Assembly: GCA_903919185.1 (NCBI GenBank)
Contig: CAIXHF010000007.1
Span: forward strand, 62,001 to 126,000
Length of the DNA: 64,000 nt
Source: an uncultured Opitutia bacterium
GTDB lineage: Bacteria > Verrucomicrobiota > Verrucomicrobiia > Opitutales > UBA953
Direction of reading: 5' to 3'
Shown here piece after piece: positions 55,494 through 61,473 of this stretch. A model generated the notes under the pieces. The model saw only the letters and a program-made list of their open reading frames with translations, searched no databases and was not told where the DNA came from. The stretch's first letter is position 1; each line of letters starts with the position of its first letter. A program made the translations under genes and the position numbers.

Positions 55494-55865
55494 TTACTCG
55501 TCGGAATCCGTGGGCGTCACCGGCTTGTCCTTGCGCGACATTTCGTCGAGCAGGGCCTGGACGCGCGCGACGCCACCGGTGACGTCGTCCTCCGCGAGGA
55601 TGAGCTCGGGGGCGTTCTTCATTTGCAAGATACCACTGACTGCCGCGCGGAGTTCGCGCCGGATACGTTTAAGGAAGGTGCGCGCAGCCTTCTTCTCGGG
55701 ATCTCCGCCCGAAACCGCATACCCAACGCGCACTTGGCGGAGGTCGGGCGAAACGGTGGCGCGGGTGATCGTGATCAACGCCGATTCGGTAATCCAATTG
55801 CGCCGGAGCGCGACGGAAACCTCGCGCTGGATCAATTCGGCTACCCGGAGCTGGCGCTGCGACAT
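55494..55865 (-). CDS. rbfA: Ribosome-binding factor A
   Basis: QLRVAELIQREVSVALRRN..ITITRATVSPDLRQVRVGYAVSG; downstream of infB. Confidence 0.9.
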   Translation of the reverse strand: MSQRQLRVAELIQREVSVALRRNWITESALITITRATVSPDLRQVRVGYAVSGGDPEKKAARTFLKRIRRELRAAVSGILQMKNAPELILAEDDVTGGVARVQALLDEMSRKDKPVTPTDSDE

Positions 55866-55868
55866 AGC

Positions 55869-58301
55869 TTAGAGGCTGGGGCGAACCTGGAGCATCTCGA
55901 CGACTTCGATGATGTCGCCGGGCTGGTACTCGTCGTAGCCACCCAGCTTAATGCCACACTCGAAGCCAGCCTTGACCTCGGAAGCATCGTCCTTGAAGCG
56001 TCGTAAAGTCTCGACCGGGCCTTGGTGGATAATCTGGCCCTTGCGGACGAGGCGAGCCTTGGCTTGGCGACGGACCAGGCCTTCGGTGACCATGCAACCA
56101 GCCACCTTGTGATCCTTGCCCAAGGGGAAGACCGCGCGGACCTCGGCACCGCCGAGCTTGTTCTCGCGGACTTCGGGGTCGAGCAGTTCGGACATGGCAT
56201 CCTTCACCAAGGTGATGAGCTCGTAGATGATATCATGCGTCACGAGGCGGACGCCCGTGCGCTTCAGGTGCGCTTGGACGCCATTCTCAATCTTGGTGTC
56301 GAAACCGACGATCATGGATCTGGCCGCTTCGGCCAACTGGACATCGCTCTGCGTGACCGGACCGACGGAGCCGCCGACGATGTCGAGACGGACCTTGGTG
56401 GACTTGATTTCGCGGAGGCAACCTTCGAGGGCTTCGAGCGTGCCGTTAACGTCGGCCTTGAGCAGGACGCGGAGAATCTTCTCCTTGTCCTGAGCGAGGG
56501 CGGCCATGAGGCGTTCGAGGTCCGTCATGCCAGGGCGAGCGCCGGTATTCGGTGCCTGCTGTTGGGCTTCGGCCGCCTTGCGGCCAGCGAGCGCGGCCTC
56601 TTCGGCTAGTTCGCGGGCTTCGCGGTCGTTCTTGAGCGTCTGGAACTTCGTGCCTGGCGCCGGGACGGCGTCCCAACCGAGGACGAGGGCAGGGGTGCCC
56701 GGCGAGGAGTTTTGGATACGGCCACCGCGTTCATCCATGAGCGCGCGCACCTTACACCACGTTTCGCCGCAGACGAAGGAGTCGCCAGGCTTGAGGGTAC
56801 CCTTTTGGACGATGACTGTCGCAGTCGGTCCGCGACCAGTCTCCATTTGGGATTCGATGACGACGCCTTGGGCGGCACACTTCGGGTTGGCCTTGAGGTC
56901 AAGGATTTCGGCCTGCAGGAGAATCGACTCGAGGAGCTCGTTCATGCCCGTGCCCTTGAGCGCAGAGACGGCGTTGGTGATGGTTTCGCCACCCCAATCT
57001 TCTGGGGTGATACCGCGCTGCTGCATCTGCTGCTTCACGCGGTCGATATTGGCACCTTTAGCGTCCACTTTATTCACGGCGCAGACAATCGCGCTGGCAT
57101 GCTTCTGGGCGAACTTGAGGGCTTCCTCGGTCTGCGGCATGAAGCCGTCGTCCGCAGCCACCACGAGGACGGCGATATCAGTGACCGAGGCGCCACGTTC
57201 GCGCATCTTGGCGAAGGCGGCGTGGCCAGGTGTGTCGAGGAAGGTGACGGTCCGTCCATTGTACTCTGGCTTCTCGCCCTGATACTTGACGGAGTAGGCA
57301 CCGATGTGCTGGGTGATGCCGCCGGCTTCGCCGGACACCACGTTAGTCTTACGGAAGTAGTCGAGGAGGGTGGTCTTGCCGTGGTCGACGTGGCCGAGTA
57401 CGCAAACGACGGGTGGGCGCTGGGCGAGCTGGGCGGGATCGTCGTCAGTGTTCTTTTCAACTTTCTTGACGGGCTGGGCGCCTTCCCCGCGGTGGCGGAT
57501 TTCGAGGACGTAGCCATGCTTCTCAGCGACCTTCCGGGCGTCGGCTTCTTCAATGACGGAGGTGATGCTGACTACCTTATTGAGCTCCATCAGGCTACCG
57601 ATGACTTGGAAGGGCTTGAGGTTGAGCGCGATCGCGAAGTCGCGGACCACGATGGGCGGGCGAATCGTGACTGCACCCTTGCTGCCTGGAGCGATTTGCC
57701 CGGCACCACCGACGGTACGCGTGACCACGGGCGCGGCTGGCGGACGGACGGTTGGAGGGAGCGGGCTGGGGCGGCTGGTCGGTGCGGGCGGCTGCGAAGG
57801 GGTGATGACAATCGGCGGCAGTTCGTTGCGCGGTGCGTTCGTCGGGACGACGACACGCGGGGGCACGGCGGACGAGGGGCCTGCGGCCGGGCGAGGCGGA
57901 GCCATCGGGGCCGGACGGGGAGGCAGGACGGCCGGAGGGACGTTAGCCCTGGTGGCGGTCGGAGCTACAGGGGCCACGGGCTTCGCGGCTTCGACCAAGG
58001 GCTTGGCCGGAACGGCCGGAGCGACCACCGGGATACTTACGGGTACCGCCTCTTCCTTTTTAGGCAACTTGTCCGCCGCAAACTCCATGAATTCCTTGCG
58101 GAAGAACTTGCTGAAATTACTGGAGGCAGCCGGCTTCTTTCCTTCAGCGTAGACAAGCTCCTTGAAGTCCGGATGGGCCTCCACGAACTGGTCCGCCAAG
58201 GTAAGCAATACCTTGACCTCGAGGCCGAGTTCCTTGGCCACGTCACTGTATCGCTGGGTGGTCGAGGCCTTCTTCGCTTCGGGTTTCTTCTTCTCGGTCA
58301 T
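55869..58301 (-). CDS. infB: Translation initiation factor IF-2
   Basis: RPPVVCVLGHVDHGKTTLLDYFRKTNVVSGEAGGITQHIGAYSV, FLDTPGHAAFAKMRERGASVTDIAVLVVAADDGFMPQT; Pro/Ala-rich N-terminus. Confidence 0.97.
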   Translation of the reverse strand: MTEKKKPEAKKASTTQRYSDVAKELGLEVKVLLTLADQFVEAHPDFKELVYAEGKKPAASSNFSKFFRKEFMEFAADKLPKKEEAVPVSIPVVAPAVPAKPLVEAAKPVAPVAPTATRANVPPAVLPPRPAPMAPPRPAAGPSSAVPPRVVVPTNAPRNELPPIVITPSQPPAPTSRPSPLPPTVRPPAAPVVTRTVGGAGQIAPGSKGAVTIRPPIVVRDFAIALNLKPFQVIGSLMELNKVVSITSVIEEADARKVAEKHGYVLEIRHRGEGAQPVKKVEKNTDDDPAQLAQRPPVVCVLGHVDHGKTTLLDYFRKTNVVSGEAGGITQHIGAYSVKYQGEKPEYNGRTVTFLDTPGHAAFAKMRERGASVTDIAVLVVAADDGFMPQTEEALKFAQKHASAIVCAVNKVDAKGANIDRVKQQMQQRGITPEDWGGETITNAVSALKGTGMNELLESILLQAEILDLKANPKCAAQGVVIESQMETGRGPTATVIVQKGTLKPGDSFVCGETWCKVRALMDERGGRIQNSSPGTPALVLGWDAVPAPGTKFQTLKNDREARELAEEAALAGRKAAEAQQQAPNTGARPGMTDLERLMAALAQDKEKILRVLLKADVNGTLEALEGCLREIKSTKVRLDIVGGSVGPVTQSDVQLAEAARSMIVGFDTKIENGVQAHLKRTGVRLVTHDIIYELITLVKDAMSELLDPEVRENKLGGAEVRAVFPLGKDHKVAGCMVTEGLVRRQAKARLVRKGQIIHQGPVETLRRFKDDASEVKAGFECGIKLGGYDEYQPGDIIEVVEMLQVRPSL

Positions 58302-58348: not shown

Positions 58349-59605
58349 TTAAGCCTGGCCAGCGGTCTTGGCCTTGGCGACGGCCGCGAGGACGGTGTTG
58401 AATTCATCCTCGGTAATCGAGGTGCCAACCAAGTCTTCGGCGGTCACATCACTGAAGGCAGCGAGCTCGGAGATGCCGAGGCCCACGAACTTTGCAATGA
58501 GGTCAGGCGAAAGTTGGAGTAGGGCGGCGAGGCGCAGGGCCTTTTCGCCGAGCTGGGCGTCCACGCTCTCCGGTGCACGCGTCGACTTCGTGATGTCGAG
58601 GCGCCAGCCCATGAGTTTGGAAGTGAGGCGGGCATTGCGGCCCTTGGAACCGATGGCGATACGCATGTCATCCTCGTCGACTTCAAAATGGATGAGGCGG
58701 TTGCGCTCATCGATGTGCACGTTGCGGGGCTTGGCCGGACGAATGGCTTCTTCCAGCAGTTGGAGGGGCTCTGGGCGCCAGCGGATGATATCAATCTTCT
58801 CTCCGTTGAGTTCCTTAACGATGTTACGCACGCGGGCGCCACGGGCACCGACGCAGGCGCCGACGGGGTCGACCTTGGGGTCGGAGGAGTCGACGGCAAT
58901 TTTGGTGCGGTAGCCTGGGTCACGCGCCATGGCGGCGATTTTGACCGTTTTATCAGCGATTTCAGCAACTTCGAGCTCCAGGAGGCGGCGAACGAAATTC
59001 GGGTGGGCGCGAGAAAGGATGAATTCACGACCACGTTGGGTGTCGTCGCGAATTTCGAGGAGCAGGCAGCGGATGCGGTCGCCGGTGCGGAAGATTTCGC
59101 CCTGGCAGCTTTCGGCGCGGGTCAGGACGGCTTCGGCCGAGCCGAGTTCGACGACCACGTTGCCGCGGTCGTTGCGGCGGACGGTGCCGGTGACGATGTC
59201 ACCGATCTTGTCCTTATACTCCTTGAAGACTTGGTCCTTCTCAATCTTACGGAAACGCTGGTTGAGTAGTTGCTTCGTGCTCATGGCCGCGATGCGACCG
59301 AGGTCCGAGACGGCGATGGGGCGACGGACTTCCTCGCCAATCTTGGCGTCAGCCTTCAGGGCGGTGGCGGCAACCGGGTTGATTTCCTTGAGGGGGTCGG
59401 ACGGGGAGTCGCTGACGATGTAGACCGCGTAGGCGTCGAGCTTGCCCGTGGCGGGGTCGGCGATGACCTCGATATTCTGTCCGGCGAGGACGGACTTTTC
59501 GACCGAAGACTTGATGGCTTCGGCGATGAGCGCGCAGGCTTCATCCTTGGGGATATTCTTTTCCTTTTCGAGGTATTGCAGGTAGGGCTTAATGTCTACG
59601 CTCAT
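58349..59605 (-). CDS. nusA: Transcription termination/antitermination protein NusA
   Basis: N-terminal domain, S1, KH motifs VGACVGARGARVRNIVKELNGEKIDIIRW, IGSKGRNARLTSKLMGW. Confidence 0.95.
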   Translation of the reverse strand: MSVDIKPYLQYLEKEKNIPKDEACALIAEAIKSSVEKSVLAGQNIEVIADPATGKLDAYAVYIVSDSPSDPLKEINPVAATALKADAKIGEEVRRPIAVSDLGRIAAMSTKQLLNQRFRKIEKDQVFKEYKDKIGDIVTGTVRRNDRGNVVVELGSAEAVLTRAESCQGEIFRTGDRIRCLLLEIRDDTQRGREFILSRAHPNFVRRLLELEVAEIADKTVKIAAMARDPGYRTKIAVDSSDPKVDPVGACVGARGARVRNIVKELNGEKIDIIRWRPEPLQLLEEAIRPAKPRNVHIDERNRLIHFEVDEDDMRIAIGSKGRNARLTSKLMGWRLDITKSTRAPESVDAQLGEKALRLAALLQLSPDLIAKFVGLGISELAAFSDVTAEDLVGTSITEDEFNTVLAAVAKAKTAGQA

Positions 59606-59640
59606 GGGTATACGGGTGGTGTGGTGAGAAAATGGGCGAC

Positions 59641-59670
59641 AAAAAAGGCGGGTCCGGCTGGACCCACCTT
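59641..59670 (-). terminator. Strong intrinsic terminator in the nusA leader (candidate attenuator)
   Basis: Minus strand AAGGTGGGTCC-AGCC-GGACCCGCCTT-TTTT: 11-bp stem with one G-U pair and a T6 run ending about 35 bp upstream of nusA ATG. Confidence 0.85.
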
Positions 59671-59796
59671 ATGGAAAGGTGACTAGGACTTCGGGTATGC
59701 CCCCTCTAATAAGGCCTGTCAAGGCGGGACGCCTCGGCGGGGGGTGGGGGTGGGTTCCGCTTGCCCCCGGGGGGTCTTCGGTGAACCTCTAGCACC

Positions 59797-61473
59797 ATGG
59801 CTGACGAAAAGGTGATTTTTACCATGACGGGCGTAACCAAGCACTTCGAGAAGAAGCCAATCTTCCGCGATATCTCCCTGTCCTACTTCTTCGGCGCTAA
59901 AATCGGCGTCCTTGGCCTCAATGGTTCGGGCAAGTCGACCTTACTCAAAATTATGGCCGGTGAAGATAAGGAGTTCGATGGCGAGATCAGTGCGGTCCCG
60001 GGCTACACGTTGGGTTACCTCGCCCAAGAGCCACGGCTCGACGAAGCCAAAACGGTGGCCGAATGCGTTAAGGAAGCGGTCTCTGAGATGAAGGCGTTGC
60101 TCGAAGAGTATGATGACACTTTTGTGAAGGTCTCCGAGACCGATGACGTCAAGGAGCAGGAAAAGATCCTGGCTCGCCAAGGAGAAATTCAGTCCATCCT
60201 CGATGCCCGTGGTGGCTGGGACCTCGACGCCCGTATCGAGATGGCCCTCGACGCGCTCCGCTGCCCTGCGCCCGAAGCGGTGGTTTCGACGCTGTCCGGC
60301 GGTGAAAAACGGCGGGTGGCCTTGTGTCGCCTGCTCTTGATGGAGCCAGACATCCTCTTGCTCGACGAACCGACTAATCACCTCGACGCTGATACGGTGG
60401 CCTGGTTGGAGCGCCACCTGCAAAACTATAAGGGCACGGTCATCGCCATCACGCACGACCGCTACTTTCTGGACAATGTAGCGGGCTGGATCTTGGAACT
60501 CGATCGCGGCCGGGGAGTGCCGTGGAAGGGCAACTATTCTTCTTGGCTCGAGCAGAAGCAGAAGCGAATCGAGACCGAAGAAAAGCAGTCGGTGGCCCGC
60601 TCCCGCTCGATGGAGCGCGAACGTGCATGGGCTGGCTCCTCGCCGAAGGCCCGGGTGGCCAAGAATAAGGCCCGCTTGCGTTCCTATGAGCAGATGCTCA
60701 CGCAGGATCAGGCCCAGACGGAGAGTAAGGCGGAGATTTGGATTCCGCCCGGCCCCCGATTGGGTGGCGCCGTCATCGAAGCTAAGGGCATGATGAAGGC
60801 CTACGGCGACCGCGTGCTGATGGAGGACGTGAACTTCTCGCTCCCCGCGGGCGGCATCGTTGGAATCATTGGGCCGAATGGCGCCGGCAAGACGACGCTC
60901 TTCCGGATGATCACGGGCCAAGAAAAGCCCGATAAGGGGACCCTTACGTTGGGCGAGTCGGTCAAGATTGCCCACGTCGATCAGTCCCGCGATTCCTTGC
61001 CGGCCGATAAGGCCCTCTGGGAAGCGATCTCTGATGGCCAGGACATGGTGCACCTCGGTAAGGTCATGGTCCCCGCGCGTGCTTACGCCGCCCGCTTCGG
61101 CTTCACGGGTGACGTGCAGCAGCGTAAGGTCGGGCTGATGTCCGGGGGTGAACGTAATCGTATTCACCTCGCTCGTTTGATCAAGGCGGGCGCTAATGTG
61201 TTACTGCTCGACGAACCGACGAACGACCTCGACGTGAACACGATTCGTGCGCTCGAGGATGCCTTGGAGTCTTTTGCGGGTTGTGCCGTGGTGATTTCAC
61301 ACGACCGCTGGTTCCTCGATCGCGTCGCGACGCACATCTTAGCCTTCGAGGATGACGGCAAACTCGTCTGGCACGAGGGCAACTACGGTGACTACCTCGA
61401 AGCGCGTCGTCGTCGCTTGGGCGAAGACTCCGATACGCCGCGGCGACCAAAGTACCGCCGGCTTACGCGTTAA
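59797..61473 (+). CDS. ettA: Energy-dependent translational throttle protein EttA (ABC-F)
   Basis: KVIFTMTGVTKHFEKKPIFRDISLSYFFGAKIGVLGLNGSGKSTLLKIMAG, two ABC domains, LSGGEKRRVALC, MSGGERNRIHLARL. Confidence 0.93.
   Translation: MADEKVIFTMTGVTKHFEKKPIFRDISLSYFFGAKIGVLGLNGSGKSTLLKIMAGEDKEFDGEISAVPGYTLGYLAQEPRLDEAKTVAECVKEAVSEMKALLEEYDDTFVKVSETDDVKEQEKILARQGEIQSILDARGGWDLDARIEMALDALRCPAPEAVVSTLSGGEKRRVALCRLLLMEPDILLLDEPTNHLDADTVAWLERHLQNYKGTVIAITHDRYFLDNVAGWILELDRGRGVPWKGNYSSWLEQKQKRIETEEKQSVARSRSMERERAWAGSSPKARVAKNKARLRSYEQMLTQDQAQTESKAEIWIPPGPRLGGAVIEAKGMMKAYGDRVLMEDVNFSLPAGGIVGIIGPNGAGKTTLFRMITGQEKPDKGTLTLGESVKIAHVDQSRDSLPADKALWEAISDGQDMVHLGKVMVPARAYAARFGFTGDVQQRKVGLMSGGERNRIHLARLIKAGANVLLLDEPTNDLDVNTIRALEDALESFAGCAVVISHDRWFLDRVATHILAFEDDGKLVWHEGNYGDYLEARRRRLGEDSDTPRRPKYRRLTR

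Follow-up and report, generated by a model that had tools for sequence, protein, structure and literature searches.

A probable transcription attenuator with competing hairpins in the nusA leader of Opitutales

Introduction

NusA is an essential factor of transcription elongation and termination, and control of its level is known experimentally in only few models. For the rimP-leader, which is reported to be more ubiquitous than any other attenuator, NusA has been proposed as the sensed protein, and most members show an 'absence of any visible antiterminator' (Naville and Gautheret 2010, PMC2965389). For Bacillus subtilis, NusA has been reported to autoregulate its operon via NusA-stimulated termination in its own leader (Mondal et al. 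2016, as cited in PMC12288461). In Escherichia coli, nusA, infB and rbfA are induced by cold stress (PMC6511841), and the same article refers to antitermination by the CspA family (Bae et al. 2000, as referenced there).

Here we analysed the nusA leader in a window of 64,000 nucleotides (GenBank assembly GCA_903919185.1, contig CAIXHF010000007.1, positions 62,001 to 126,000) from an uncultured Opitutia bacterium, the source genome assembly of which is incomplete (2.29 Mb). As in the systems above, an intrinsic terminator is present in the leader of the nusA/infB operon, both in the window and in leaders of its order and phylum. We consider it probable that the nusA-infB-rbfA mRNA carries a transcription attenuator at its very start, with feedback by NusA likely and with a covarying antiterminator added.

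The nusA leader in the window

The genes nusA, infB and rbfA form one operon-like run, and nusA is separated from a divergent ettA-like gene by a gap of 191 bp that contains the element. The features are as follows.

55494-55865, minus strand: rbfA, the last gene of the operon (Pfam RBFA); the next long frame downstream is on the plus strand
55869-58301, minus strand: infB, encoding IF-2 (Pfam IF-2, GTP_EFTU, IF2_N)
58349-59605, minus strand: nusA, the first gene of the operon (Pfam NusA_N, KH_5)
59641-59646, minus strand: U tract (T6), invariant in the same-genus alignment
59645-59670, minus strand: intrinsic terminator hairpin, 11 bp with loop AGCC, identified by folding, a compensatory change and same-type hairpins across the phylum
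59665-59670, minus strand: shared arm AAGGTG, both the 3' side of the antiterminator and the 5' base of the terminator
59676-59681, minus strand: 5' arm CACCTT of the putative antiterminator hairpin, pairing with 59665-59670 and covarying across Opitutales genera
59684-59690, minus strand: predicted transcription start region, most likely at the A of AGTCACC (59684)
59694-59699, minus strand: CATACC, a weak putative -10-like hexamer, placed by its 17-bp spacing
59717-59722, minus strand: TTGACA, putative -35 element of the nusA promoter, invariant in the same-genus alignment
59797-61473, plus strand: ettA-like ABC-F gene, the divergent neighbour, outside the element (Pfam ABC_tran twice, ABC_tran_Xtn)

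Between ettA and nusA, the minus strand reads TTGACA-N32-AGTCACCTTTCCATAAGGTGGGTCCAGCCGGACCCGCCTTTTTTGTCG. The terminator arms on this strand are AAGGTGGGTCC (59670-59660) and GGACCCGCCTT (59655-59645), joined by the loop AGCC (59659-59656), and of the T6 run (59646-59641) two T's lie inside the 11-bp stem and four after it, the next base being G. The minimum free energy of the 31-nt terminator hairpin is -20.2 kcal/mol (z = -4.8), and that of the upstream hairpin CACCTT(TCCAT)AAGGTG, at 59681-59665, is -5.9 kcal/mol (z = -4.8); for each of the two, 200 dinucleotide shuffles gave no fold as stable. The element sequence occurs once in the window, where a pattern scan also picks up the terminator; a consensus promoter scan called no promoter at the TTGACA/CATACC site. 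A single leader of about 80 nt precedes nusA, and the predicted terminated RNA is about 45 nt long.

An earlier note, made from the letters of this DNA, had quoted the minus-strand leader, described a strong terminator whose arm AAGGTG could pair instead with the upstream CACCTT (59665-59681), and pointed out that the divergent ettA leaves this terminator without an ordinary gene to end. The quotation is exact, the 11-bp stem, the T6 run and the alternative pairing are present with the energies and shuffle results given above, and, with ettA divergent, there is indeed no annotated upstream gene able to use a minus-strand terminator.

In front of ettA lies GGTTCCGCTTGC (window 59753-59764, plus strand), a 12-mer with only two exact copies in the genome. 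Across 48 same-genus intergenic regions its core, GTTCCGCTTGC (minus-strand GCAAGCGGAAC), hardly varies, and this core was not seen where the neighbour is a gene other than ettA; possibly, GGTTCCGCTTGC is part of the ettA promoter or leader.

Conservation within the genus

Of 55 same-genus genomes, 52 yielded a NusA, and ettA is divergent in all 48 same-genus intergenic regions that could be aligned. The element is present in every readable same-genus leader (49/49, comprising 21 distinct sequences), although the first hairpin is reduced to a weak 4-bp form in one of them (L009). In four leaders (L018-L021), the terminator carries a compensatory change from T-A to C-G. A covariance model gave one strong match per same-genus genome, always upstream of nusA and scoring 61-74 bits, with the next matches at 28-32 bits. 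One nusA (G006:C2:258427-259574) is in pieces with several in-frame stops, for which assembly errors are the most likely cause. Two records, titled 'Akkermansia muciniphila' HRS-HS9-bin-183 and 'Polynucleobacter meluiroseus' HRS-ES1-bin-412 (L085 and L091), carry a nusA about 75% identical to that of the window, and their titles are therefore probably wrong.

In the same-genus alignment, TTGACA is invariant, the stretch after it is variable (the sequence of the -10-like hexamer CATACC is not conserved), and conserved sequence sets in again precisely at AGT(T)CACC. The distance from the start of TTGACA to AGT(T)CACC is 34-40 nt in the 49 leaders and 35 nt in 30 of them. Because conservation resumes there, at the distance at which a -35/-10 promoter would start transcription, we place +1 at AGT(T)CACC and infer that the nusA-infB-rbfA mRNA begins with the element. 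Among the papers searched, none mapped transcription starts (dRNA-seq) in Verrucomicrobiota.

Pairing across Opitutales

The order was sampled, not exhaustively (127 leaders, 58 genera); beside the leaders of the genus and family, 100 others from the order were read. Whereas ettA is divergent from nusA in the genus, in most other genera of the family it was not found beside nusA and the upstream gene is usually a different one; still, the element lies directly before nusA with changed letters, its arms pairing as GCTTTC/GAAAGC in L142 and L150 and as CTTTC/GAAAG in L143-L144. Most of the further leaders of the order follow the same plan, namely TTGAC, a short 5' end, a hairpin, a terminator of the form AAAGTGGG...CCCGCTTTTTTT, and nusA, and among them the 5' arm and the shared arm read CTCTT/AAGAG, CTATC/GATAG, TATCC/GGATA, ATCCT/AGGAT, TCTCC/GGAGA or CACTTT/AAAGTG. 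TTGA[CT] occurs 30-95 nt upstream of the terminator core in 127/127 Opitutales leaders, versus 7/123 in a control window further upstream, and its distance to the 5' arm has per-genus medians of mostly 36-48 nt; in the window, the 5' arm begins at about +4 from the predicted start.

Pairing was quantified by a swap test, in which the best helix between the upstream region and the terminator base was compared with those obtained when upstream regions were exchanged between genera. When each of the 58 genera was represented by a single leader, matched pairs averaged -2.9 versus -1.5 kcal/mol for mismatched pairs (z -5 to -6), and in each of five draws none of 20,000 permutations reached the observed value; leaving out the window's own family gave z -5.1 and again 0/20,000. 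A helix of -2 kcal/mol or better was found in about 62% of genera versus 29% of mismatched pairs. Since genera within a family are related and not independent, the test was repeated with one leader per family (20 families, 20 draws), giving a mean z of -2.7, a median P of 0.005 and a maximum P of 0.27. Wilcoxon tests on pairing gave p = 1.7e-6 for genus means and p = 0.011 for family means.

The exact P values are to be read with the caveat that this final test, which ties the helix to the terminator base, had its criterion fixed once the outcomes of earlier versions had been seen. The earliest compared hairpin duplex energies with dinucleotide shuffles of 14-40 nt upstream and mostly returned P values that were not small; it was uninformative, as the arms were cut at the wrong place and short shuffles often retain an arm. 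An intermediate swap test with looser arms gave P = 0.011 at genus level and only P = 0.07 for the order, and in another the core was misplaced in many leaders.

These comparisons thus suggest that selection acts on the alternative helix in a large part of the order but not throughout it. About a third of the terminator-bearing genera lack a 5' hairpin by the criterion used (for example, several genera of family f11), and the terminator itself is absent in several genera, in parts of families f24, f26 and f27. Five leaders from f24 genera (L193, L238, L239, L241 and L242) have no GTGGG terminator before nusA, with a different GC-rich hairpin at the same place. Within the genus, the 5' hairpin has -6 to -7 kcal/mol against -16 to -22 kcal/mol for the terminator, and elsewhere it often has only -2 to -5 kcal/mol.

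The earlier note had proposed a leader attenuator and had named the conservation and covariation of the hairpins in relatives among its checks. Both hairpins are kept in 49/49 same-genus leaders (L009 with its weak first hairpin) and in most of the order, and changes in the 5' arm are compensated in the shared arm across Opitutales, strongly by genus and moderately by family. Two mutually exclusive hairpins that share one strand are both maintained by compensatory change (0/20,000 at genus level, moderate at family level), and these patterns, together with TTGA[CT] upstream in 127/127 leaders, speak for the proposed attenuator.

Occurrence in other Verrucomicrobiota

A leader terminator upstream of nusA is found through most of the phylum sample. 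In other Verrucomicrobiota, and in records titled Kiritimatiellae and Lentisphaerae, a terminator precedes nusA, typically AAGAGTGGGC...CCCACTCTTTTG; of 40 genomes across non-Opitutales families, a strict pattern detects it in 27, and several more carry an altered form. In three leaders from two families of the same class (L278, L279 and L280), the stem reads GTGGAAAC...GTTTCCAC instead of GTGGG...CCCAC. A 5' hairpin was present in only 7 of the 27 non-Opitutales terminator leaders, for which the swap test was marginal (P 0.04), and the 21 nearest non-Opitutales loci gave no pairing signal in this test. With the terminator in most of the phylum sample and mostly unaccompanied by a 5' hairpin outside the order, we conclude that the terminator is old, and the 5' hairpin mainly an addition of Opitutales.

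Searches for RimP (PF02576) were negative in all 55 same-genus genomes and in all 145 genomes sampled from Verrucomicrobiota, of which 139 have a completeness of 90% or more, the control being positive in 10 of 14 well-known genomes. Feedback by RimP is accordingly unlikely here.

Searches against known RNA families

The Rfam model of the gammaproteobacterial rimP leader (RF01770) had no match in the window leader (E up to 10) or in 34 related loci (E up to 1), and it detected the E. coli leader used as a control at 102 bits. Across the leaders searched, no Rfam family above threshold covers the element. L20_leader (RF00558) was rejected, its score of 19.7 bits against a gathering score of 58.7 being carried mainly by the terminator, and a riboswitch or T-box was rejected because no Rfam match was obtained. 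A leader peptide was likewise rejected, as the first hairpin starts within about 15 nt of the predicted start, so early in the transcript that a peptide-coding frame would not fit ahead of it. We also considered whether the 5' hairpin might act in pausing, as in his leaders, but saw no clear pause consensus at the 10-13 nt that this would require.

Mechanism and alternative explanations

In prefix folding, which is an equilibrium calculation and not kinetics, the 5' hairpin is predicted from nt 18 onward; at nt 33-37 it coexists with the upper stem of the terminator, and once nt 38 is reached the terminator is complete. Under the preferred reading of a NusA-responsive attenuator, transcription would start from the TTGACA promoter at or just before AGTCACC, a step that conservation strongly suggests. 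Once about 18-20 nt are free, CACCTT is calculated to pair with AAGGTG, and the upper part of the terminator (GGTCC/GGACC) would then form beside this hairpin while its lower part, next to the U tract, stays blocked, constituting an antiterminated state. From about nt 38, the full terminator is calculated to be more stable and could displace the 5' hairpin. Whether displacement finishes while RNA polymerase is on the U tract would decide between an aborted RNA of about 45 nt and read-through, and slower elongation would tilt this race toward termination. NusA, by slowing polymerase and aiding hairpins, would favour termination, such that high NusA would lower expression of its own operon and low NusA would raise it.

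The sequence of the 5' hairpin varies freely between genera while its pairing is kept, which argues that it acts through base pairing alone, and, being much weaker than the terminator, it could act only kinetically. It may therefore tune read-through and sharpen its dependence on elongation speed or NusA. The element is probably a real switch for making NusA, although NusA as the sensed signal, a possibility already raised in the earlier note, is suggested by analogy, from work on the corresponding operon in other phyla (PMC2965389, PMC12288461). More tentatively, and with less than even confidence, we suggest that the whole order has added a pairing-conserved 5' antiterminator to an older terminator, thereby creating a kinetic sensor of polymerase speed, and through it of NusA activity or temperature, within a leader of about 45 nt and with no ligand, leader peptide or dedicated protein; such an element would be among the smallest regulated attenuators.

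It is also conceivable, if rather unlikely, that the same attenuator senses temperature or elongation rate instead of NusA, in that cold would slow displacement, the 5' hairpin would survive and read-through would raise NusA, IF2 and RbfA. The cold induction of nusA, infB and rbfA in E. coli, together with the CspA-family antitermination referred to in the same source (PMC6511841), is in line with this, as are the freshwater habit of these bacteria and the retention of the 5' hairpin by pairing and not by sequence, which would be expected of a physical sensor. However, low temperature stabilises terminator pairing too, and a response to cold cannot be what the leader first served, since in the phylum the terminator occurs far more widely on its own than with a 5' hairpin. 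We give a smaller chance to a fixed, unregulated attenuator that merely sets the level of the operon, with the 5' hairpin serving to stabilise the start of the mRNA. Messengers are known to gain protection from hairpins at their 5' terminus, and neither a ligand-binding domain nor an Rfam match is visible here; nonetheless, a stabiliser has no need to pair with the terminator base, which is exactly the pairing that covaries, and protection of the 5' end would in any case come from the full terminator hairpin.

That the RNA of about 45 nt is itself the product, a small regulatory RNA with the terminator as its 3' end, is a weaker alternative that we regard as improbable: a conserved -35 element and a strong terminator do bracket such an RNA, but its 5' sequence is unconserved beyond the genus and nearest relatives while pairing is kept, unlike an antisense seed, and the element stays directly before nusA with no second strong copy in the genome. 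It is harder still to credit an ordinary terminator or insulator for upstream transcripts in which the CACCTT repeat is coincidental. In its favour, some related genera (such as L139-L141) seem to have a same-strand open frame that stops ahead of the terminator. Against it, the window's genus has a divergent gene on that side, the promoter motif is placed after any upstream gene and before the terminator in 127/127 leaders, and the 5' arm covaries.

Comparison with known leaders

A nusA leader terminator in most of a phylum sample without detected rimP separates feedback by NusA from feedback by RimP, two options left open by the authors of the 2010 study (PMC2965389), and the covarying antiterminator of Opitutales is small enough to be rebuilt in the test tube, making the kinetic idea directly testable. 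Like the rimP-leader, the element heads the same operon core, with a leader terminator built on a GGG...CCC stem and a U tract, tens of nucleotides before the first gene. Unlike it, nusA comes first with no rimP, and a covarying 5' hairpin competes with the terminator. The rimP-leader motif is GGGc(...)gCCC; the GGG/CCC core is kept in most of our leaders, and the adjoining pair is c-g in many (L018, L143 and non-Opitutales loci), whereas the window has T-A there (GGGTCC/GGACCC). As the first gene differs and the motif match is mixed, we do not file the element as a rimP-leader. The gammaproteobacterial rimP leader (RF01770) likewise heads the same operon and has a termination/antitermination region before the general motif, but with two tandem terminators in about 100 nt. 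Attenuators of the trp/his type similarly rely on mutually exclusive antiterminator and terminator hairpins, with a leader peptide that the window leader does not share.

Attenuation of nusA in B. subtilis reportedly works without an antiterminator structure. As in that system, a terminator lies between the putative promoter and the nusA operon (TTGA[CT] upstream in 127/127 leaders); the B. subtilis leader is long, at about 180 nt, and its NusA dependence has been shown, whereas the window element is known from sequence. The E. coli metY-rimP-nusA-infB operon also has leader terminators before nusA-infB, together with cold induction of these genes (PMC6511841), but differs in its multiple promoters, tRNA gene and RNase III sites from the single leader of about 80 nt seen in the window. 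Based on these comparisons, the element would work like a rimP-leader/NusA attenuator, in a variant form whose structure is well supported and whose sensed signal is presumably NusA.
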